Source: Desulfarculus sp.
GTDB taxonomy: Bacteria > Desulfobacterota > Desulfarculia > Desulfarculales > Desulfarculaceae
Direction: 5' to 3'
Length of the DNA: 64,000 nucleotides
Assembly: GCA_003605055.1 (NCBI GenBank)
Contig: QZKP01000053.1
Location: 1-64,000 of the forward strand
The notes under the pieces were generated by a model, which saw only the letters and a program-made list of their open reading frames with translations, searched no databases and had not been told where the DNA came from. Made by a program: the position numbers and the translations under genes. Positions within the stretch are counted from its first letter, which is position 1. Each line of letters opens with the position of its first letter. Positions 21,286-29,855 of the stretch are shown piece by piece.

Positions 21286-22374
21286 ATGAGCCGGTCATCC
21301 AAGATAGCCTGCCAGCGGCTCGCGCCCGGTCCGCCAGCCACTGACAGGGCGCTCCAGAACACCTCTGACCCTTTACAGCATCCCACTCCCTGTCCGGGGC
21401 TGGCGGATAATCATGGGCGGGTCGTAAAAACCCTGCGCCTGTCGGTCACGGACCGCTGCAACCTGCGCTGTTTCTACTGCCTCCCAGAGGCCGGCTTCAA
21501 GGCCAAGCCGCGCGAGGATATCCTCACCTTCGAGGAAATCTTGCGTCTGGTCCGCATTTTTCTGCGGCTAAAGATCATAAAAGTCCGGCTAACGGGTGGA
21601 GAACCTCTGGTAAGAGGGGGGATAGTGGAACTGGTCCGTGAACTAAAGCGGGCCCAGGTCCCGGACCTTAGGCTCACCACCAATGGCCTTCGGCTGAGCC
21701 GTATGGCTGAGGAGCTTTTCCAGGCCGGGGTCGGTCGGGTCAATGTGAGCCTGGACACCCTTGAGCCGCACAAGTTCCACACCATCACTGGCGGAGGCCG
21801 GCTCAGCAGGGTGCTGGACGGGATAGAAAAGGCCCTGGCCGCGGGTTTTGCGCCGGTGAAGATCAATGTCGTGGTCATGCGCGGCGTCAACGACAACGAG
21901 ATACAGTCTCTGGCCCGGTTGGCTTGGTCCCGGCCCCTGCAGGTGCGTTTTATCGAGTTCATGCCCATCGGGCGCAACGGTTGGCGGCGCGAACTCTTCT
22001 ACCCCGGTTCCGAAATCATGGCTCGGCTGCACCAAATGGGAACGCTTCAGGAACTCCCCCACGAGCCGGGCGATGGACCGGCCAGACGGTTCCATCTGAC
22101 GGGCTGGGGAGGGGAAGTTGGGCTTATCAGCCCAGTTTCCCAGCACTTCTGCGACCGCTGCGACCGTTTGCGCCTGACCGCCGATGGAAAGCTGTTGAAC
22201 TGTCTTTTCGCCCGGGGGGAGGTGGACATAAAGAAGCTTTTACGGTCAGATGCGGATGACGAGATGCTGCTGGCGCAAATCCAGAGGGTGGTGGCGACCA
22301 AAGCAGCCGTCGGTCCCCCGGCCTGCGGGCAGGGAAATGAAAGAGGCCGGCCCATGACGGCAGTTGGCGGGTGA
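21286..22374 (+). CDS. moaA: GTP 3',8-cyclase MoaA (molybdopterin biosynthesis)
   Basis: 362 residues. The radical SAM cluster site CNLRCFYCLPE (residues 65-75) follows LRLSVTDR, as in MoaA, with LTGGEPLVR after it. The C-terminal second cluster appears as FCDRCDRLRLTADGKLLNCLF, and the protein ends RPMTAVGG, matching the conserved GG tail that binds at the active site. MoaA turns GTP into the first molybdopterin intermediate. The N-terminus is about 30 residues longer than usual and the true start may be later. Placement in the Mo enzyme operon, 11 bases after the FecR-PKD gene, suggests cofactor supply tied to the enzyme. Confidence 0.9.
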   Translation: MSRSSKIACQRLAPGPPATDRALQNTSDPLQHPTPCPGLADNHGRVVKTLRLSVTDRCNLRCFYCLPEAGFKAKPREDILTFEEILRLVRIFLRLKIIKVRLTGGEPLVRGGIVELVRELKRAQVPDLRLTTNGLRLSRMAEELFQAGVGRVNVSLDTLEPHKFHTITGGGRLSRVLDGIEKALAAGFAPVKINVVVMRGVNDNEIQSLARLAWSRPLQVRFIEFMPIGRNGWRRELFYPGSEIMARLHQMGTLQELPHEPGDGPARRFHLTGWGGEVGLISPVSQHFCDRCDRLRLTADGKLLNCLFARGEVDIKKLLRSDADDEMLLAQIQRVVATKAAVGPPACGQGNERGRPMTAVGG

Positions 22375-22582
22375 GCTGGGTCTCAGCGGAGAGATGGTTG
22401 CCCAGGCTATATATTCATAGGGAGAGCGGTGGCTTGAGACTGGCCTGCCGTCTGCTGCCGTGGCAATGCCACCCAGCTTGCCCGTTGTCGCCGATGGGTT
22501 GGCGTGTTCAGGGCTGCTGCTTGAAGTCACTGGAAAGGTCTGATATTTTCGGGCATAATCTGGTACGATTAGGTACAAGCTA

Positions 22583-22933
22583 ATGAAAACGGCGTCTAAT
22601 CAAAATGTAGTGACTGAACAACTGAGCCGCTTACATGCCTTAATTCCGCATTTGACGAGAGCCATCAAGGGGCTGGCGGACGAAAACCGGCTGAGGATTC
22701 TCCTGGTATTGGCCGGCAGCAGAAAATCAGTGGGTCAGATTGTGGAAGCAGTGGAGTTGTCTCAGCCTTTGGTTTCCCATCACCTCAAGGGGCTGAAAAT
22801 CGGCGGGCTGGTTCAGGTGCGAAGAGAAGGCCCCTTTATTTTTTATGAACCGGCTGGGCCGCAAATAATTGACGTGTTAAAATCCTTGGCAGATTTAATA
22901 GCAGAGCAGAGAGCTGCAGACAATGCGTACTGA
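22583..22933 (+). CDS. ArsR-family transcriptional regulator without Cys metal site
   Basis: 116 residues with the winged helix fold: LADENRLRILLVLAG, SVGQIVEAVELSQPLVSHHLKGLKIGGLVQVRREGPFIFYEP. Classical ArsR proteins carry a CxC arsenic site at the start of the recognition region; here that place reads GSRKSVGQIVEAV, and the protein has no Cys at all. It therefore either senses something else or depends on a partner. Its last 11 bases overlap the start of the selenocysteine gene at 22923, implying translational coupling. It heads the 22.6-29.9 kb cluster. A weak -10 (CATAAT, 22553-22558) lies upstream. Confidence 0.85.
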   Translation: MKTASNQNVVTEQLSRLHALIPHLTRAIKGLADENRLRILLVLAGSRKSVGQIVEAVELSQPLVSHHLKGLKIGGLVQVRREGPFIFYEPAGPQIIDVLKSLADLIAEQRAADNAY

Positions 22934-23378
22934 TGAACTACTAAAGGCTTTTTCTCAAGAAGATCCACACCAGGCGGCGTTGACACTGAAAGAGGCCCTC
23001 GCCCAAACCCTTGCCCACTTGGACACAGAGGTTCGCAGGGAAATCCTACTGGGTCTGACCGGGGAGGCGGGGTACGACAAGGTGTCCAGCTTGGTCCATC
23101 TCTGACTGGCTGAATGCCTGGGCGAAGGTGTCGACCCCACGGACATGTGCAAGAACATGATGGCCAAGGTGGCTCAGTCCGAGCAGATAAAGGCCGTTGT
23201 CTCCCCCGAAGTATTGATGCTGTTTGAAGACTGGATGGAAGAACTCGAGCATGAGGCGCTGAGGGCCATTAAAAAAGCCGGCGTGGCCGATCCCATGGCC
23301 TTGGCCGAAGATCTGGGCTTGTCCCGCTCGGGCGCCCAATTTCTGATTGCCAAGCTGAAAAAAGAGCAAAAGCTCTAG
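22923..23378 (+). CDS. Selenocysteine protein with helix-turn-helix-like tail, coupled to ArsR
   Basis: A 151-residue frame with one internal TGA at 23103-23105, codon 61. Both sides are in the same frame, are helical and of similar base use, and no frameshift is needed. Read as Sec the sequence is VHL-U-LAECLGEGVDPTDMC, giving U61 with Cys65 and Cys76. The tail (about 108-150; ALRAIKKAGVADPMALAEDLGLSRSGAQFLIAKL) looks like a small helix-turn-helix. I do not recognise the family. Overlap with the Cys-free ArsR gene suggests it could supply a redox or metalloid sensing site. A SECIS-like hairpin lies 13 bases after the TGA. The alternative is a nonsense mutation. Confidence 0.7.
23119..23139 (+). 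promoter_or_regulatory. Predicted bacterial SECIS hairpin for codon 61 of the HTH selenoprotein
   Basis: TGGGCGA (23119-23125) pairs with TCG and CCCA (23131-23139) with one bulged A, leaving the loop AGGTG (23126-23130). The loop lies 21-25 bases after the UGA, in the range and with the GGU-type loop expected of bacterial SECIS elements. This is a hand prediction without energy calculation. Confidence 0.5.
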
Positions 23379-23421
23379 GCGCAGCCTAAAAAAATGCAGG
23401 CGAGGCGTTAAGTTATGCATT

Positions 23422-23437
23422 ACATATAAATATATGT
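23422..23437. promoter_or_regulatory. AT-rich perfect inverted repeat, candidate operator
   Basis: ACATATA-AA-TATATGT is a perfect 7-2-7 palindrome inside a 45-base AT-rich island in a GC-rich region, just upstream of the rhodanese-DsbD gene. AT-rich ATAT-type palindromes are typical of ArsR-family operators, and an ArsR-family gene lies 0.5 kb upstream. A binding site is inference. Confidence 0.45.
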
Positions 23438-23539
23438 TAATATATTATTAAGCTGGGCTGGCAAGGCAGGCCGGCCGGTAACCAGGCCCGGTTACGTTCG
23501 CTGTCGCCTTCTGGTTAAACCAGGGCGCGGGAGAGGGTC

Positions 23540-25312
23540 ATGTCAAGCTTAAAAAAAATTGTCCTGGCCTGTGCGGCGGTGGCCCTGGTCATCGGGTCTC
23601 TCTGGATCACCAACCGGGTGGTCACGCCCAAGGAAGCCACTTGGGAGGATGTGAAGGCCGAGGCCCAACAAGGAGGCTACCGCCTGCTCACCACCGGCGA
23701 GCTGGCCCAGGCGTATCGGCAAAACCCCGCGGGGATGCTCCTGGTGGACACCCGGCAGGACTGGGAGTATCGCGCGGGACACATCACCGGCGCCCTGAAC
23801 TTCCCCCTAGAGCCCACTTGGTGGTCCCGCTGGCGCAACAAAGGAGACCTGGCCCGCTTCCTGGGGCCGGACAAGAATCGCCTGTTGGTTTTCTACTGAG
23901 CGGGCCTGGCCTGAGTCCGTAGCGACTCGGCGGCCAGGGTGGCCGTCCAGCTTGGCTACAAAAAGGTGTACCGTGACCCCCTGGGCTATCCCGAGTGGAA
24001 GGCCAAGGGCCTGCCCACTGCCGTCTCCCCCCTGCAGGCGGGCCTGTCCGGCCAGCCGCCCGTCACGGCCGGGCCCTTGTATGGTTGGGCCATGCTGGGG
24101 ACCCTCCTGGCGGTGTTTCTGGGCGGGCTGGCCCTGAACCTGACTCCCTGCGTTTATCCCCTCATCCCCATCACCGTGTCCTATTTCGGCGGCCGCAGCG
24201 GCCAGCGAAAAGGGCGCGTCCTAGGGCACGGGCTGCTCTACCTGGGCGGTCTGGTGATTATAAACTCCGCCCTGGGAGTGACCGCCGCCCTCACCGGAGG
24301 CCTGATGGGGGCTGCCCTGCAGAGCCCGTGGGTCCTGTTGGCCGTGGCCGCGGTGCTCGCGGGTTTTGCCCTGAGCATGTTCGGCCTGTGGGAACTGCGC
24401 CTGCCCGCCTTCCTGACCAGGGCCGCCTCCCAGAGCCACGCGGGGTACTTTGGCAGCCTCTTCATGGGCCTCACCCTGGGGGTGGTGGCCGCGCCCTGCA
24501 TAGGGCCTTTCATCCTAGGGCTGTTGACCTGGGTGGCCAGCCTGGGCAGCCCCTGGCTGGGCTTCATCGTATTCTTCACCCTGAGCCTGGGCCTGGGTCT
24601 GCCCCTGTTTGTGCTGGCCCTGTTCTCCGACCGCCTAGAGAGCCTGCCCCGTTCGGGCGAGTGGATGCTCTGGGTGCGCAAGCTCATGGGCTGGGTGCTG
24701 CTGGGCATGGCCGCCTATTTCCTGGGCCCCCTCCTGCCCCACGGCGGCCGCTACCTGCTGCTGGCCGGCGTCGCCCTGGCCGGCGCCGTTCACCTGGGTT
24801 GGCTGGGGCGCAGCCAGCCAAAGGCGGCGGGCTTCGAATGGATGCGGGCCGCGGCGGCGGTGGCGGGCGTGGGGTTGGCCACCTACCTGGCCGGGAGCTG
24901 GCTGATCCTGGGGACCGGGGTGGCCTGGCAGCCCCATTCCGACCAGTTGCTGTCCCAGGCCCGGCAGCAGGGAAAGCCGGTGATAATCGACTTCTATGCC
25001 GACTGGTGCGCGCCCTGCCGGGAGCTGGAGGACATCACCTTTCACGACAAGCAGGTGGTGGGCCTGGCGGATAAGTCTTTTGTGATGATCAAGGTGGACC
25101 TCACTGGGCGGGACGACGCCCTGCACCCCGGGCTATTGCAGAAATATGGCGTGCAAGGCGTACCCACCGTGGTCCTGCTGGATGCACAAGGGCGGGAGCA
25201 GAGGGACCTGCGCCTGGTGGATTTCCTGCCGCCGGATCAATTCCTGGCCAGGATGAAGCGGGCGTTGGAGACACCCGAAAACGTCGAGAAGCGCCCCGGA
25301 CCCAAGAAATAG
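23540..25312 (+). CDS. Rhodanese-DsbD fusion with two selenocysteine codons
   Basis: A 590-residue frame interrupted by TGA at 23897-23899 (codon 120) and 23912-23914 (codon 125). Domains: membrane signal/anchor (about 5-26); periplasmic rhodanese (about 45-155; MLLVDTRQDWEYRAGHITGALNFP, then FY-U-AGLA-U-VRSDSAARVAVQLGYKKVY); DsbD-type eight-helix electron-transfer domain (about 180-410) with Cys204 in TPCVYPLIPITV and Cys320 in AAPCIGPF; C-terminal thioredoxin domain with Cys490-Ala-Pro-Cys493 (ADWCAPC). The first Sec occupies the rhodanese catalytic Cys. DsbD moves reducing power from cytoplasmic thioredoxin to the periplasm; here the usual DsbD alpha domain is replaced by the rhodanese. 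Homology continues straight through both TGA codons in one frame, which supports recoding. Confidence 0.85.
23905..23938 (+). promoter_or_regulatory. Predicted SECIS hairpin for Sec120 (first UGA) of the rhodanese-DsbD gene
   Basis: CCTGGCC (23905-23911) pairs with GGCCAGG (23932-23938) and GAGTC (23913-23917) with GACTC (23924-23928), closing the loop CGTAGC (23918-23923). The loop is 19-24 bases after the first UGA. The second UGA lies inside the stem. This is one of the strongest hairpins in the cluster. Confidence 0.6.
23931..23945 (+). promoter_or_regulatory. Alternative SECIS hairpin for Sec125 (second UGA)
   Basis: CGGCC (23931-23935) pairs with GGCCG (23941-23945) across the loop AGGGT, 22-26 bases after the second UGA. 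It uses bases of the right arm of the first hairpin, so the two structures exclude each other and could form in sequence as the ribosome advances. This is inference from base pairing. Confidence 0.45.
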
Positions 25313-25416
25313 GAGCAAAAGCCTAGGTGGCCAAGCTTTCCAGTGTTTGGATGGTTCCGGGGTCCAGCGGTTAGACGGGCTGGGTAATTTCCGGAAATAA
25401 AAGGGAGCCTTGAATA

Positions 25417-26088
25417 ATGGGCCATTCAACAGTTGTGGAACGAGGCCGTCGCTGGCAAATGCCGCTCGGCATAATCATGGTGTTGTTGCTGTTGGGAGGC
25501 TGGTTTTTCCCGCCTCTTGGATATTTCATGGTTTTCTGCATGGTCATGGCCATGGGTATCGGGATGGTCAAAGGAAGGCACTGGTGTGACTGGATGTGTC
25601 CCCGCGGAAGTTTCTGGGATTTGTTTCTGGTCCGGTTCAGCCGTAATGTCGTGGTCCCCGGATTTTATCGAAGCGTCCCCTTCCGTTTGCTTTGGCTATG
25701 TATCCTGATGGCCATGTTGACCATAAACATAGTCCCGGTATGGGGCGATTTATACCTGATGGGCAAACCATTTGTGCTGGTCCTCACCCTGACCACCGTC
25801 ATCGGACTCGTACTGGGTGTGATTTATCACCCCCGCATTTGGTGCATGTTTTGCCCTATGGGCACGATGGCCAACTGGCTGGGACAGGGCAAAAAGCCTC
25901 TCACTATCGACAAAGGCTGCATCAAATGCGGAATCTGCGAAAAGGTATGCCGGATGCAGATCAATCCTGGGGCCTACCGGGAAGAAGGCCAGGTGAAGCA
26001 TGGCGATTGTCTGAAGTGCGCCTACTGTGTGGAAAGCTGCCCGCAAAAAGCCCTCAGTTTTAAGTCGCCGGAACGACTGGCGGCGTAA
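25417..26088 (+). CDS. NapH-like membrane ferredoxin
   Basis: 223 residues with about four transmembrane helices, two cytoplasmic CxxxCP motifs (WCDWMCPRG near residue 57, WCMFCPMG near 144) and two C-terminal [4Fe-4S] sites (CIKCGICEKVC, CLKCAYCVESCP). This is the NapH/RdxA/CcoG-like polyferredoxin plan, where the protein passes electrons from quinol or cytoplasmic donors across the membrane. It lies 104 bases after the rhodanese-DsbD gene, inside the selenoprotein cluster, and may be an additional electron source. It resembles the cluster's last gene (28854), which is longer. Confidence 0.8.
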   Translation: MGHSTVVERGRRWQMPLGIIMVLLLLGGWFFPPLGYFMVFCMVMAMGIGMVKGRHWCDWMCPRGSFWDLFLVRFSRNVVVPGFYRSVPFRLLWLCILMAMLTINIVPVWGDLYLMGKPFVLVLTLTTVIGLVLGVIYHPRIWCMFCPMGTMANWLGQGKKPLTIDKGCIKCGICEKVCRMQINPGAYREEGQVKHGDCLKCAYCVESCPQKALSFKSPERLAA

Positions 26089-26243
26089 AAAAAGTTTATG
26101 CCTGGGGAACGGTGAGACCGTTAAGGCAAGCAAATGTGGCTTGGAAAAGTCGATCAGCGCGTCCCTCGCTCTGGTTAGCAAGGTTCCAAGAAGGCTTTTG
26201 CTGCCTCTTTCCAAGAGATGTCAACTGATGAAAGGAGATGGAC
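26089..26243 (+). other. Spacer before the twin selenoproteins
   Basis: 155 bases without a gene. It contains an 8-base inverted pair, CTTGGAAA near 26142 and TTTCCAAG near 26205, with a wide loop, and the strong ribosome site AAAGGAG at 26231-26237 for the next gene. I see no promoter. Confidence 0.3.
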
Positions 26244-26564
26244 ATGCTCAAGGTCAGGTTTTTCCTGAACGAGCCCAACGGAAAGCCCTGAATCCACTTC
26301 CAGGAGATGATGCCCAGGTTGGGCGACAAGTACGCGGTGGAGATCGAGGTCATTTCCAAGCCCCGGGCCGAGTACCAGACCGACGAGTACTTCGAACTGG
26401 ACCTGCCCACCGCCCCGGCGGTGATGGTGGCCGAAGAGATCGTGGTGGAAGGCAAGGACGTGAGCGAGGGCGAATTGGAGGCGTTCATCTGCCGGCATTT
26501 GGGCCTGCCCGAGCCCCAGGCAGCCCAGAAGAAGGGCTTCTTGGGCAAATTTTTCAAGGACTGA
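26244..26564 (+). CDS. Thioredoxin-fold selenoprotein, first of a twin pair
   Basis: 106 residues with TGA at 26289-26291 as codon 16: MLKVRFFLNEPNGKP-U-IHFQEMMPRLG. After a first beta strand the Sec sits where thioredoxin-fold proteins place the N-terminal redox Cys. There is no second Cys beside it. The later LPTAPAVMVAEEIVVEGKDV resembles the cis-proline strand and following hairpin of glutaredoxin-like proteins. Cys82 near the end (FICRHLG) is the only cysteine. The ribosome site AAAGGAG is ideal, and a frame starting after the TGA would lack the first strand. I know no named family. Its paralogue follows at 26638 with TGA at the same codon. Confidence 0.8.
26312..26324 (+). promoter_or_regulatory. 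Predicted SECIS hairpin of the first twin selenoprotein
   Basis: GCCCA (26312-26316) pairs with TGGGC (26320-26324), closing a GGT loop 26-28 bases after the UGA. The paralogous gene has a hairpin at exactly the same spacing. Confidence 0.5.
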
Positions 26565-26637
26565 GGCCAGCGCCGCCGGAGCGATTAGTCCGCGGTGGAG
26601 CGCGGCCGGGCCGGGCGGAGAATGACGGAGAACTGAG

Positions 26638-26904
26638 ATGCTTCGCTTGCGTTTTTTCCTTAACGAGCCCAGAGGCAAGACCTGAGGACTTTTTGAGGAG
26701 ATGCTGCCCAGGCTGGGCGGCATGGATGGCGTGGAAGTAGAAGTGGTCTCCAAGCCGCGCAAGGAATTCCAGAGCGAGGTCTATCGCCAAAGCGGCTTGC
26801 CGCCTGCCCCGGCGGTCATGATTGACGATGAGGTGGTGGCCCAAGGAGGTCCCATCACGGAGGAGCGGCTGCGCGAGCTGATAGCGGCTCGGCAAAGCGC
26901 TTAG
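26638..26904 (+). CDS. Thioredoxin-fold selenoprotein, second of a twin pair
   Basis: 88 residues, paralogous to the preceding protein: MLRLRFFLNEPRGKT-U-GLFEEMLPRLGG, with TGA at 26683-26685 as codon 16. The middle (VEVEVVSKPRKEFQSE) and cis-proline region (LPPAPAVMIDDEVVAQGG) align well with the first copy. The C-terminus is shorter. The protein has no cysteine at all, so Sec16 would be its only redox group. GGAG lies 7 bases before the ATG. Retention of an in-frame TGA at the same codon in two diverged copies is strong evidence against random nonsense mutation. Confidence 0.8.
26706..26718 (+). promoter_or_regulatory. Predicted SECIS hairpin of the second twin selenoprotein
   Basis: GCCCA (26706-26710) pairs with TGGGC (26714-26718) around a GGC loop 26-28 bases after the UGA, the same geometry as in the first copy. 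Part of the match follows from shared protein sequence (PRLG), so it is supportive and not independent proof. Confidence 0.45.
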
Positions 26905-26935
26905 CCGCGCCGAACCGGGAAACCGGAGGCCTCAC

Positions 26936-27658
26936 ATGAATGCACCAGAGGTGAAGGTGGGCCCCTCGGCTTATGATCGCTGGCGGGCCTCGGATCTTGG
27001 TGCGCTGACCGAAGAAATTGAGCACCGCCTGCTATGGGAAACGATCGGCGACCCCCGCCGAAGGCTTGTCCTGGACGTGGGCTGCGGCGACGGCCTTCTG
27101 GCGCGCCAGGCCAGCCGAATGGGGGCGAGGGTGGTGGGGCTGGACCCGGACCAGGCCATGTTGGCCGCCGCGGTCGCACATGGCGCCTCAGGGTTGGATG
27201 GGCCCTGGTGGGTGCGCGGCCGTGCGCAGCATTTGCCCATCAAGGATGCTTGTTGCGATCTGGTGGTGGCCGTGACCGTGCTCTGCTTCCTATCAGCTTC
27301 CGAGGCCCGCAAAGCAACGGCCGAGATGGCCAGGGTGCTCAGGCCCGGCGGGCGTTTGGTCCTGGGAGAACTGAGCCCCTACAGCATTTGGGCGGCAAGT
27401 CGAAGGGTACGGGGCTGGCTGGGATCCCGCTTGTGGCGCCGGGCCCGTTTCCACGGCCCGGCAGAGCTCAAAGGTCTGGCCCAGGAGGCAGGCCTTAAAG
27501 CGGAGAGCTTGCAGGGGGCGGTCTATTATCCTCCCTGGTGGTGGGCGGCCCGCCGGCTGGCGACCTGGGAGCGGGCGTTGTCGGCGGTCACCACCCTGGG
27601 CGCGGCCTTCTTGATCCTGGCGGCCTCCAAACCAAGGCGGCCCGCTGTTATCGGATAA
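26936..27658 (+). CDS. Class I SAM-dependent methyltransferase
   Basis: 240 residues with the Rossmann-like methyltransferase core: motif I LVLDVGCGDG (about 44-53), VVGLDPD after strand 2, and VLRPGGRLVLGELS (about 136-149). It belongs to the Methyltransf_11/UbiE-like group. Paired cysteines occur at AC-C in KDACCDLV (about 105-106), which ArsM would place differently; the three-Cys ArsM pattern is absent. The C-terminus has a hydrophobic stretch (SAVTTLGAAFLILAA), perhaps membrane-associated. Lying between the Sec proteins and the ArsC fusion, it may methylate a metalloid, but quinone or other substrates are possible. Confidence 0.75.
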   Translation: MNAPEVKVGPSAYDRWRASDLGALTEEIEHRLLWETIGDPRRRLVLDVGCGDGLLARQASRMGARVVGLDPDQAMLAAAVAHGASGLDGPWWVRGRAQHLPIKDACCDLVVAVTVLCFLSASEARKATAEMARVLRPGGRLVLGELSPYSIWAASRRVRGWLGSRLWRRARFHGPAELKGLAQEAGLKAESLQGAVYYPPWWWAARRLATWERALSAVTTLGAAFLILAASKPRRPAVIG

Positions 27659-27671
27659 AGAAGGAGGCCCC

Positions 27672-28847
27672 GTGTCTAATCAAGAAACTCCCCGGCGGAG
27701 ACGGTCCTGGTTGAGGATCGGTGCCTTGGCCGCGCTGGTGATAGGCGGGCTTGTGGGCCTCCGGGCCAGCGGCTTGTCCCAACATTTGAATTTGGAAAAC
27801 TTGCAGGGTCTTTCCCAAACCGTACGGGACTTGGGCTGGGTGGCGCCGCTGGCCTACGTGCTCTTGTGGGTGGTGGCCTGCCTGTTCTTCTTGCCCGGCC
27901 TGCCCGTCACCCTGCTGGGGGCGGCCGTATTCGGGGCCTGGTGGGGGATGCTGTGGGTGACCATTGGCGCCAACCTGGGGGCGGCTATGGCCTTCCTGGC
28001 CGCCCGCTATGCACTGCGGCCGTTGGTGGAGTCCTGGGCGGCCCAAAACAACCAGTTTCAAAAGATAGACCAGGGCGTGGCCCGCCACGGCTGGCGCATG
28101 GTCATGATCACGCGCCTGGTGCCGCTGTTTCCTTTCAACCTCCAGAATTACGCCTATGGCCTCACCAAGATACCCTTGCGCACCTTTGTGATAGTCAGCG
28201 TTATTTGCATGCTGCCGGCGACCGTAGCCTATTGCCTGGCCGGGGGGGCGCTGGTCAGCGGGCAAGGGGACATAAAAAGGACCTTGCTGTATTTCGCCGC
28301 CGCCGCGGTCTTTTTCGCCTTTGCCTCTTTGCTGCCCGGTTGGATAAAAAAACGCTACCTGAACGCCAGCGCCGCCGCGGGAGAAAAGATACCCGTCCTT
28401 CGGGAGGCCAGGCCTCCCATCAGGGTCCTGTTCGTCTGCGTCCACAACAGCGCCCGCAGCGTGATGGCCGAGCACTTCCTGCGAAGGCATGGCGGCACGA
28501 GTTTTCTGCCCGAGAGCGCCGGCTTCGAGCCGGGCGATGTCTTGCCCGCGGCCGTGGAGGCAATGAAGGAGATCGGCCTAGACATTTCTGCTCATAAAGC
28601 CCAAGGCGTGTATGAGCTGGCCGAGATGGGCAGAACCTACGATTACATCATTGCGGTTTGCAGCGACCTCCACGGGCATTGCCTGCCCGATTTTCCAGGG
28701 GCCAAGATTTTGCATTGGCCCTTCCCGGAGCCTTCAACCTTTGCGGGCTCCTGGGAAGAGAGGCTGGCCCGCACCCGAAACGTGCGGGATCAGATCCAGC
28801 AGGCCACGCTGAGATGGGCCGCGGAACAAAACCCCGCGCAAGGATGA
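27672..28847 (+). CDS. TVP38/TMEM64 membrane protein fused to ArsC-type phosphatase
   Basis: 391 residues from a GTG with AAGGAGG upstream. Residues 1-235 form a DedA-superfamily TVP38/TMEM64 domain (helices; FLPGLPVTLLGAAVFGAWWG, RLVPLFPFNLQNYAYGLTKI). Residues 248-391 form a low-molecular-weight phosphatase domain of the thioredoxin-coupled arsenate reductase kind: VLFVCVHNSARSVMAEHFL with Cys256, then Cys330 and Cys337 in VCSDLHGHC, then HWPFPEP. The three cysteines match the ArsC relay of reduction and disulfide shuttling. The fusion would tether arsenate reduction to a transport-like membrane domain, regenerated perhaps by the cluster's thiol/selenol proteins. Confidence 0.85.
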   Translation: MSNQETPRRRRSWLRIGALAALVIGGLVGLRASGLSQHLNLENLQGLSQTVRDLGWVAPLAYVLLWVVACLFFLPGLPVTLLGAAVFGAWWGMLWVTIGANLGAAMAFLAARYALRPLVESWAAQNNQFQKIDQGVARHGWRMVMITRLVPLFPFNLQNYAYGLTKIPLRTFVIVSVICMLPATVAYCLAGGALVSGQGDIKRTLLYFAAAAVFFAFASLLPGWIKKRYLNASAAAGEKIPVLREARPPIRVLFVCVHNSARSVMAEHFLRRHGGTSFLPESAGFEPGDVLPAAVEAMKEIGLDISAHKAQGVYELAEMGRTYDYIIAVCSDLHGHCLPDFPGAKILHWPFPEPSTFAGSWEERLARTRNVRDQIQQATLRWAAEQNPAQG

Positions 28848-28853
28848 AAGCCG

Positions 28854-29855
28854 GTGTCCTTGACCGCTCAGGTTCGGGCGCGAAGGTGGAACCAAGGCCC
28901 GGAGCCAGAACCCAACTCAAAGAACCTTAAGATGGCCAACCCGTCCTCAAAAGCTATCAGGACAAGAGTGGTCCAAGTCCTCAGCTACCTGGGCCTGGTT
29001 TACGCCGTCCTGGGCTGGTTGAACGAGGTCTGGCTTCACTGGGCCGACAGCGTATTCCTGAGCCACTACTCCGAGTACATGGCCATCGGGATCTTCGGCG
29101 TCTACAGGGTGGCGGTGGAGAAGAACCCCTACACCCGGAAGAGAATAGCCGTGCTGACGGCTATGGTGGTGGGCTTCTGGGGGCTGTTGCCCTATGTCTT
29201 TTCCCTGGCCGAGCCCGCCTGGGGATATTTCAGCGGCCGGGCTATCGTGGGGCGCTCGCTGCACATACCCATGACGCTCACCTTCCTGGTGTCCCTGGCC
29301 CTGGTCTTCCTGTTCGGACGCCGGGCGGTGTGCAGCTGGAATTGTCCCTGTGTGGGGACCAGGGACACCATGGGCGCGGCCTTCCGCAAACAAAGCATCA
29401 AATCCCGGACCGCCTGGAAGCTGAGGCACCTCAAGTGGGTATTGACCAGCGTCTATTTCGCCCTCTTCGCCCTGGTCTTTGTGCCCCTGCCCATCGTCAG
29501 GCCCATCATAGAGGGATTTTTGGGCCTGGTGGGCTTAATATACTTCGGTTCTTTTCTCTTCATACCCTTGACCGGCAACCGCAACTGGTGCCGCTGGCTC
29601 TGCCCCTATGGGGGCACCTTCGGCCTGCTGAACAAGGCCGGTTTTTATAAGATCAAAGCTGAGCCGGACAAGTGCGTGGCCTGCAAAAAGTGCGAACAGG
29701 AATGTGACATGGGCATTCCGGTGCAGCAACTGGTGCAGTCTAAAGGCGAGGTGAAGGTGGTGGACTGTGTGGGTTGTGGCCGTTGCGTGACCAATTGCCC
29801 CAAGGGCGTCCTGAGCTTTCATGATGTCAGGGATATTTTTAAAAGAGATGTCTAG
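28854..29855 (+). CDS. NapH-like membrane ferredoxin, long form
   Basis: 333 residues with about five transmembrane helices, CSWNCPC and CRWLCPYGG cytoplasmic motifs, and two C-terminal [4Fe-4S] sites (CVACKKCEQECDMGIP, CVGCGRCVTNCPKG). This is the NapH/4Fe-4S polyferredoxin plan, as in the shorter protein at 25417, and likely moves electrons across the membrane. The GTG start at 28854 has AAGGA overlapping the upstream stop. The first 26 residues look non-homologous, so ATG at 28932 (MANPSSK) may be the real start. It ends the selenoprotein cluster. Confidence 0.8.
   Translation: MSLTAQVRARRWNQGPEPEPNSKNLKMANPSSKAIRTRVVQVLSYLGLVYAVLGWLNEVWLHWADSVFLSHYSEYMAIGIFGVYRVAVEKNPYTRKRIAVLTAMVVGFWGLLPYVFSLAEPAWGYFSGRAIVGRSLHIPMTLTFLVSLALVFLFGRRAVCSWNCPCVGTRDTMGAAFRKQSIKSRTAWKLRHLKWVLTSVYFALFALVFVPLPIVRPIIEGFLGLVGLIYFGSFLFIPLTGNRNWCRWLCPYGGTFGLLNKAGFYKIKAEPDKCVACKKCEQECDMGIPVQQLVQSKGEVKVVDCVGCGRCVTNCPKGVLSFHDVRDIFKRDV

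Follow-up and report, generated by a model that had tools for sequence, protein, structure and literature searches.

TsoB, curated in NCBIfam as model NF045694, 'rhodanese/DsbD fusion-like selenoprotein TsoB', is tabulated in PMC13188914 as a UxxxxU protein with two selenocysteine (Sec) residues, with Haft and Tolstoy 2025 cited as the source. The gene considered here lies in a stretch of 64,000 nucleotides (nt) from Desulfarculus sp. (assembly GCA_003605055.1, contig QZKP01000053.1, positions 1 to 64,000), referred to below as the window. Its open reading frame (ORF), 23540-25312 on the + strand, encodes 590 residues and has no internal stops except two TGA triplets. The first of these, UGA1 (23897-23899, +), is codon 120, at the rhodanese active-site position; the second, UGA2 (23912-23914, +), is codon 125, and the two are 15 bases apart from start to start. 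With TGA read as Sec, the translation contains the domains PF00581 (rhodanese), PF02683 (DsbD membrane) and PF13899 (thioredoxin-like), and it scores 957.1 bits against NF045694, exceeding the curated whole-protein cut-off of 805. The gene is tsoB, and its product is an already-known double-selenocysteine membrane protein. No difference from described TsoB was found at the protein level: the same rhodanese/DsbD fusion, UxxxxU motif and two Sec residues are present, with TsoA and TsoC adjoining. A reading made earlier from the letters of the window alone, here called the original prediction, had proposed a rhodanese-DsbD fusion with two Sec codons and two overlapping, mutually exclusive hairpins, and had suggested that such a mechanism would be novel. 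The fusion and the two Sec codons are borne out; novelty does not extend to the protein, although the literature covered, which did not include the founding TsoB paper, gave no description of the RNA elements. What may be new here is a first hairpin (H1) whose loop mostly lacks G[G/U], together with a possible distance-adjusting role for that hairpin.

The bacterial selenocysteine insertion sequence (SECIS), as modeled in PMC13188914, has a loop of 3-9 nt, a stem of 4-16 base pairs (bp), a G in the first two loop bases, a loop that is mostly but not always G[G/U], a spacing of 16-37 nt and an energy of at most -7.5 kcal/mol. About 11 nt beyond the codon in the aminoacyl (A) site are hidden by the ribosome (PMC4513850). 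With only 15 nt from one UGA to the next, a hairpin of the usual kind for the first has to include the second or lie past it. The second tsoB hairpin (H2) is like the described element (E. coli fdhF type; PMC13188914) in its small G[G/U] loop and in having its stem just beyond the ribosome footprint. Unlike that element, tsoB adds a preceding, mostly non-canonical H1 that contains part of UGA2, and a single segment of 50 nt serves two UGAs. Eukaryotic SELENOP has two SECIS and ten UGAs (PMC5133445). Both genes have multiple UGAs and multiple RNA elements for them, but the SECIS of SELENOP lie in the 3' untranslated region, whereas the tsoB hairpins are coding and translated. Hairpins of the selenocysteine codon redefinition element (SRE) type are a further case of extra RNA elements for UGA recoding. 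In a library that covers part of the literature and lacks the founding TsoB paper, none of the papers listed was evidently about SECIS that come in pairs or overlap within one bacterial gene, and no account turned up of how bacteria handle two UGAs so close together.

We conclude that two adjacent, compatible mRNA hairpins probably serve the tsoB UGAs in succession rather than as a rival pair. The comparison set consisted of 104 matches, 96 of them distinct, selected for carrying both UGAs; ordinary rhodaneses, one Cys-Cys copy and one fragment lay outside it. One sequence with a deletion after UGA2 was omitted from all RNA counts, leaving 95. A hold-out was drawn from at least 34 double-TGA matches, of which 34 were listed and 30 loci read; exclusion of two duplicates and three DGPS-type loci left 25 sequences. 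The pooled set of 120 holds 119 distinct segments between UGA1 and +40, in a numbering that sets the last base of UGA2 (23914) to 0. A tree of 91 proteins was built without the hairpin region, with four partial rows omitted. Silent sites were ranked by their changes on this tree at 204 third positions of conserved residues (median 26 changes). The shuffle null was obtained by shuffling third bases for 200 rounds, and the synonymous null by resampling the codons between the UGAs.

H2 (23930-23946, +) pairs positions 16-21 (23930-23935) with 27-32 (23941-23946) around a 5-nt loop, AGGGU (23936-23940), 21 nt after UGA2. All six pairs are kept in 91 of the 95 relatives, where the shuffle null has a mean of 13.4 and a maximum of 23. 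All 25 hold-out sequences have the complete stem and add UA and UG to the types known at pair 18-30; the pooled count is 116/120. Two of the pairs join silent third bases. At pair 18-30 (23932-23944) the 95 sequences have GC 63 times, AT 20, CG 7, GT 2 and a mismatch 3 times; at pair 21-27 (23935-23941) they have CG 83 times, TA 11 and TG once, with no mismatch. The former has the highest covariation score among 9614 third-base column pairs in the gene, and the latter, at 0.43, falls just under the 25 best listed. On the tree these pairs underwent 11 compensatory double changes (5 at 18-30 and 6 at 21-27), no breaking double changes and two breaking single changes, and among 366 third columns the predicted one is in each case the best partner. 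The silent sites of the stem, with 6, 6, 7 and 7 changes, are the next slowest of the 204 after two sites in the H1 stem; site 33, just after H2, ranks 135. The loop has a G in its first two bases in 120/120 sequences and is G[G/U] in 120/120, against 51% expected from Arg codon use. The energy of H2, -10.2 kcal/mol in the window and -9.5 at the family median, is within the SECIS rule, as are loop, stem and spacing with respect to UGA2, and a consensus fold of the 95 sequences returns H2.

Relatives with one UGA mostly retain the element. All 20 that were fetched, from 21 single-TGA matches listed, are Cys-x4-Sec proteins, with Cys at the first position; H2 stands at the same place in most, with 5 or 6 pairs in 18 of them and a shifted-register hairpin in the other two. 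From its covariation and its retention with a single Sec, H2 is very probably the SECIS of UGA2, where SelB would bind it. One observation concerns the sequence omitted above (L129, G399 contig 195): its TsoB stretch after the RSD following UGA2 is missing in frame, which removes H2, through either a real loss or an assembly fault.

The apical part of H1 (23913-23928, +) pairs positions -1 to 3 (23913-23917) with 10 to 14 (23924-23928) around a loop at positions 4-9 (23918-23923), and its stem takes in the GA of UGA2. The loop is CGUAGC in the window and CGNAGY in most relatives; it starts 18 nt after UGA1, with 13 nt separating UGA1 from the stem. All five pairs are kept in 81 of the 95 relatives (shuffle null mean 40.0, maximum 50), in 24 of the 25 hold-out sequences and in 105 of the pooled 120. 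The two slowest of the 204 silent sites belong to this stem, 23926 (position 12, 2 changes) and 23917 (position 3, 3 changes), while in the loop site 6 ranks 57 and site 9 ranks 18. Codon choice is correspondingly narrow: Val directly after UGA2 is encoded by GTC in 89/91 sequences vs 1121/3978 elsewhere in the gene, and the Asp codon of H1 is GAC in 93/95 vs 776/1720. By this silent-site constraint apical H1 is under selection at the RNA level, and we infer for it a role at UGA1. Cys-x4-Sec relatives are without H1: they form at most three of its five pairs, and the mean energy of the segment is -1.5 vs -5.5 kcal/mol.

An extension of H1 past a bulged U (GCC/GGC around U23912) was tried and rejected, pair 23911-23929 occurring in 44/95 sequences and 23909-23931 in 46/95; 23911 itself is unranked among silent sites, its residue being variable. 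Upstream, the Tyr codon before UGA1 (23894-23896) is TAC in 86/94 and with 7 changes is tied fifth slowest of the 204 sites; this constancy may reflect an influence of the 5' context on how UGA is read.

Thermodynamic folding allows H1 and H2 in tandem without proving it, and the evolutionary evidence is the stronger. When 8, 9 or 11 nt after UGA1 are hidden and the window segment ends at 23951, the fold is H1 plus H2 at -20.0 kcal/mol. With 11 nt hidden and segments taken to +37, both hairpins exceed a probability of 0.5 in 96/120 sequences, and over -3 to 36 the H1 plus H2 structure is within 1 kcal/mol of the minimum in 73/120 and within 2 in 86/120.

A number of observations weigh against hairpins used in succession. 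Some concern H1: one pair is broken in 15/120 sequences, covariation is almost absent so that the case rests on silent-site constraint, and the consensus fold of the 95 sequences did not return it. By itself it folds at -4.8 kcal/mol, short of the published -7.5 rule, a value that in the window is reached only with the help of an unconserved lower stem (described below). A canonical-loop hairpin occupies its site in 20/120, and the loop of the window's own H1, CGUAGC, has G followed by U. The absence of H1 from Cys-x4-Sec relatives is confounded, since those proteins differ in sequence as well. Others concern H2. Among Cys-x4-Cys relatives, 8/19 have 5 or 6 of its six pairs, and in two of the eight the hairpin is strong. 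Coding constraint thus favors such pairing to some degree, and on these sequences H2-like pairing is evidently not specific to Sec genes; their mean H2 energy is weaker, -7.2 kcal/mol vs -10.5 and -10.6 in the other groups. Predicted folds are also sensitive to the bases included. If segments with 11 nt hidden run to +46 or +72, the number of sequences in which both hairpins pass 0.5 drops to 37 and 42 of 120, and in the window segment to 23960 a competing hairpin replaces H2 beside H1 (-22.1 to -24.3 kcal/mol). In the window, H2 has a probability of 0.01-0.61 when UGA1 occupies the A site, varying with the number of hidden bases, and of 0.08-0.37 when UGA2 does. In naked RNA its mean probability over the 95 relatives is 0.23-0.24, and naked window RNA gives H1 0.98, the lower stem of an extended H1 (described next) 0.94 and H2 0.03. 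Separately, predicted folds show competition with H2 from the bases just 3' of it (23947-23960 in the window), which read CUUGGNUAC in many relatives.

The original prediction had drawn hairpin 1 in an extended form (23905-23938, +), and its overlap with hairpin 2 stems from a lower stem of 7 bp (23905-23911/23932-23938). A ribosome passing UGA1 was proposed to melt the one and free the other. Such a switch, whether strict or relaxed, in which only one of the two hairpins can stand at a time and the ribosome flips the RNA from one to the other, has in its favor the naked window RNA, where the minimum-energy fold of 23897-23960 (-31.6 kcal/mol) contains extended hairpin 1 and not H2. The window is the only one of the 120 sequences with all seven lower-stem pairs. 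At least six occur in 15/120 but in none of the 25 hold-out sequences. Mean lower-stem pairing over the 120 is 4.017, the same as under the synonymous null (4.017 +/- 0.075), and for the segment as a whole the folding energy, -22.03 kcal/mol, equals that null too (-21.90 +/- 0.21). At the two pairs tested on the tree most changes break the stem, with 17 breaking vs 8 keeping at pair 23911-23932 and 20 vs 7 at 23908-23935. Silent sites of its 5' arm rank 147 (23905, position -9) and 46 (23908, position -6) of 204 in slowness, and site -12, also between the UGAs, ranks 135. With UGA1 in the A site, six of the seven bases of that arm fall inside the hidden 11 nt.

Two further results are kinder to a switch. 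Sequences with a broken H1 pair are enriched in those with at least six lower-stem pairs (9/15, Fisher p 1.8e-6, relatedness uncorrected), which counts against the succession of compatible hairpins as well; sequences with both features come mostly from one order. In addition, in naked RNA of the 120 sequences the 5' arm of H2 pairs somewhere in the inter-UGA stretch, whatever the register, with a mean probability of 0.48 (above 0.5 in 67 sequences); this mean is above all 20 rounds of a null with mean 0.42 and maximum 0.47, relatedness again being uncorrected. A register-free competition in naked RNA, looser than the switch as drawn, is possible, but it matters less during decoding, when the ribosome hides about 11 nt beyond the codon in the A site. 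The counts, the synonymous null, the hold-out and the tree all speak against mutual exclusion in the form drawn, which is rejected. The lower stem is judged coincidental, and a switch of any kind is improbable.

What survives of the original prediction on the RNA side is accordingly partial. Both hairpins can be drawn, and H2 and apical H1 exceed chance while the lower stem sits at its null. Covariation, proposed as a check, is present in H2 and contradicted on the tree for the lower stem; folding of 23897-23960, also proposed, gives extended hairpin 1 in naked window RNA, yet the folds vary with the hidden bases and the 3' end. Of the proposed mechanism, successive use of the two hairpins would hold, and toggling based on overlap is not supported.

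In the succession that we favor, apical H1 and H2 would stand side by side outside the ribosome while UGA1 is in the A site, and Sec-tRNA would be delivered for UGA1 with help from H1. After insertion of the first Sec the ribosome, by the geometry of the segment, would advance five codons, melt H1 and free UGA2, with H2 now 21 nt away. Sec would then be delivered for UGA2 via H2, whose structure is indicated by covariation and to which SelB would bind.

How H1 would help at UGA1 admits more than one answer. Tentatively, and short of an even chance, H1 may be a collapsible spacer: once its 16 nt are folded, the distance between UGA1 and H2 would shrink from 36 to about 20 nt. One SECIS, H2, would then decode both UGAs, at an effective 20 nt for UGA1 and a linear 21 nt for UGA2, and H1 would be a sequence-neutral distance adjuster instead of a SelB site, with a loop that would tend to avoid the SelB motif. 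In line with a spacer, hairpins of the sibling genes have mostly AGG-type loops, placed in TsoA at 20 nt in 53/66 fetched loci; TsoC hairpin loops stand at 25 nt (inner loop) in 78/88 fetched loci. Likewise, H2 is the sole canonical-loop hairpin common to the three DGPS-type double-UGA relatives (L281-L283). These three were also seen to have 5 or 6 H2 pairs with loop CGGGU, to have a UGA1-to-H2 pairing of other sequence, and all to be able to form CUUCGU/ACGAAG around UGA2.

Almost as likely, H1 may itself be a SECIS of divergent form to which SelB binds at UGA1, with H2 acting for UGA2 and neither being shared. H1 agrees with the SECIS model in loop size, in its 5-bp stem, in having a G at loop base 1 or 2 in 120/120 and in spacing, since a loop 18 nt after UGA1 is within 16-37 nt. 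Its 13-nt distance from UGA1 is near the 11 nt of the E. coli upper stem-loop (PMC8659212), the slowest-changing silent sites of the gene belong to it, and the G and U of the window's loop fit as well. Yet the family mostly lacks G[G/U], which occurs in 23/120 loops including that of the window, and the G itself is forced by an Arg codon; of 13 conserved Arg columns, the one in this loop has the lowest G/T share (0.17 vs 0.28-1.0). The energy of H1 alone is above the -7.5 rule, and both the sibling loops, mostly AGG-type, and the DGPS-type relatives, where the shared canonical loop is that of H2, speak against a second SelB site. We lean slightly toward the spacer role over the divergent-SECIS role.

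Another arrangement, which we regard as unlikely, would have H2 alone serve both UGAs, at 36 and 21 nt, with H1 serving only to pause the ribosome or resist termination, or with its codons kept for other reasons. The longer distance is still inside the 16-37 nt of the model (PMC13188914), and H2 passes the loop, stem, spacing and energy rules for both codons. Spacings in the sibling genes cluster at 20-25 nt, however, and by itself this arrangement leaves unexplained why paired silent sites of H1 are frozen when those of its loop change more.

At the protein level, TsoB consists of an N-terminal hydrophobic segment, the rhodanese domain with U120-x4-U125, the DsbD membrane domain and a C-terminal thioredoxin (DsbD-gamma-like) domain. 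Among 88 distinct NF045694 matches above the cut-off, 86 have two TGAs, one (G455 contig 188) has three and one has none; members with a single TGA number 0. The TGA-free member (G278 contig 128; L118/L132) is a Cys-x4-Cys copy with CAGPDC in a genome that also carries a Sec-Sec copy; by eye, its H2 pairs are intact. Two short frames of 188 and 166 codons (L119, L120) with the motif UAGLAUVRSDSAARVAV are apparently stand-alone rhodanese copies without DsbD.

An AlphaFold2 model built from 12 sequences has a mean predicted local distance difference test (pLDDT) score of 70, with blocks of 69-91 over residues 31-160. It places U120 directly after strand 115-119 and U125 just ahead of helix 127-137, which we take to be the two ends of the rhodanese active-site loop. 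Across 12 proteins, two Cys in the DsbD membrane domain never vary, nor does the CxxC of the C-terminal domain. A PDB search matched DsbD gamma, thioredoxins, rhodaneses and CDC25, and among the entries listed none was named a selenoprotein. Both Sec residues probably lie in the rhodanese active-site loop and are reduced via the DsbD relay in the cell envelope. The simplest reading would be a diselenide or selenenylsulfide center outside the cytoplasm, acting on a putative substrate such as sulfane sulfur or similar.

The gene is part of a tso-type cluster spanning 21286-29855 of the window; all features that follow with a strand are on +. Upstream of tsoB are a TsoR-like ArsR/SmtB regulator (22583-22933, +; NF045707, 103 bits, under the cut-off of 115) and tsoA (22923-23378, +; NF045695, 186 bits, cut-off 170), a LULAxC selenoprotein gene with its UGA at 23103-23105. 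Downstream are a NapH-like membrane ferredoxin without UGA (25417-26088, +; TIGR02163, E 1.8e-13, under cut-off) and two tsoC copies, both open frames matching NF045708 (cut-off 45). Copy 1 (26232-26564, +; 153 bits) has its UGA at 26289-26291 and hairpin loop AGGUU; copy 2 (26626-26904, +; 112 bits) has its UGA at 26683-26685 and hairpin loop AGGCU. MoaA (21286-22374) is encoded just upstream of the tso genes. Further along, ORF 26936-27658 is methyltransferase-like and ORF 28854-29855 is a second membrane ferredoxin-like frame, both judged by eye only; between them, the C-terminal third of ORF 27672-28847 matches ArsC-type arsenate reductase, under cut-offs. An Rfam scan of 23000-27000 gave no match up to E 0.5.

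A last alternative holds that no Sec is made, the TGAs being signs of a pseudogene or sequencing error, or an ordinary stop followed by a separate downstream gene. It finds encouragement in the search for tRNA-Sec, which was not found with the family model among 150 scored of 845 candidates in an assembly 93.9% complete, a result that counts against hairpins used for Sec insertion as well. The model returned nine weak matches, all under the gathering score, and ARAGORN names other tRNAs at 9/9. ARAGORN detected no tRNA-Sec on the selB contig and other loci, and a search with a hand-written tRNA-Sec pattern gave one match, not called a tRNA by ARAGORN. Against this stand the two TGAs with frames open on both sides in 86/88 matches, a selB gene in the same genome (382.9 bits, cut-off 242.25), the curation of NF045694 as a selenoprotein family and the in-frame UGAs of neighboring TsoA and TsoC. 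We give this alternative hardly any credence. The same genome also carries a second rhodanese (L240, contig 7:20044-20370) with Cys-x4-TGA followed by a hairpin, GCCGCC-AGGUU-GGCGG, which is probably another of its selenoproteins.

The window illustrates that a striking overlapping fold in one sequence may be a coincidence while shorter parts within it are real. For a pair of UGAs so close together, about 120 natural TsoB sequences record the bacterial solution as silent-site constraint. If true, shifting the register of a single SECIS by a spacer hairpin would amount to a simple rule by which several Sec residues could be placed in one bacterial protein.

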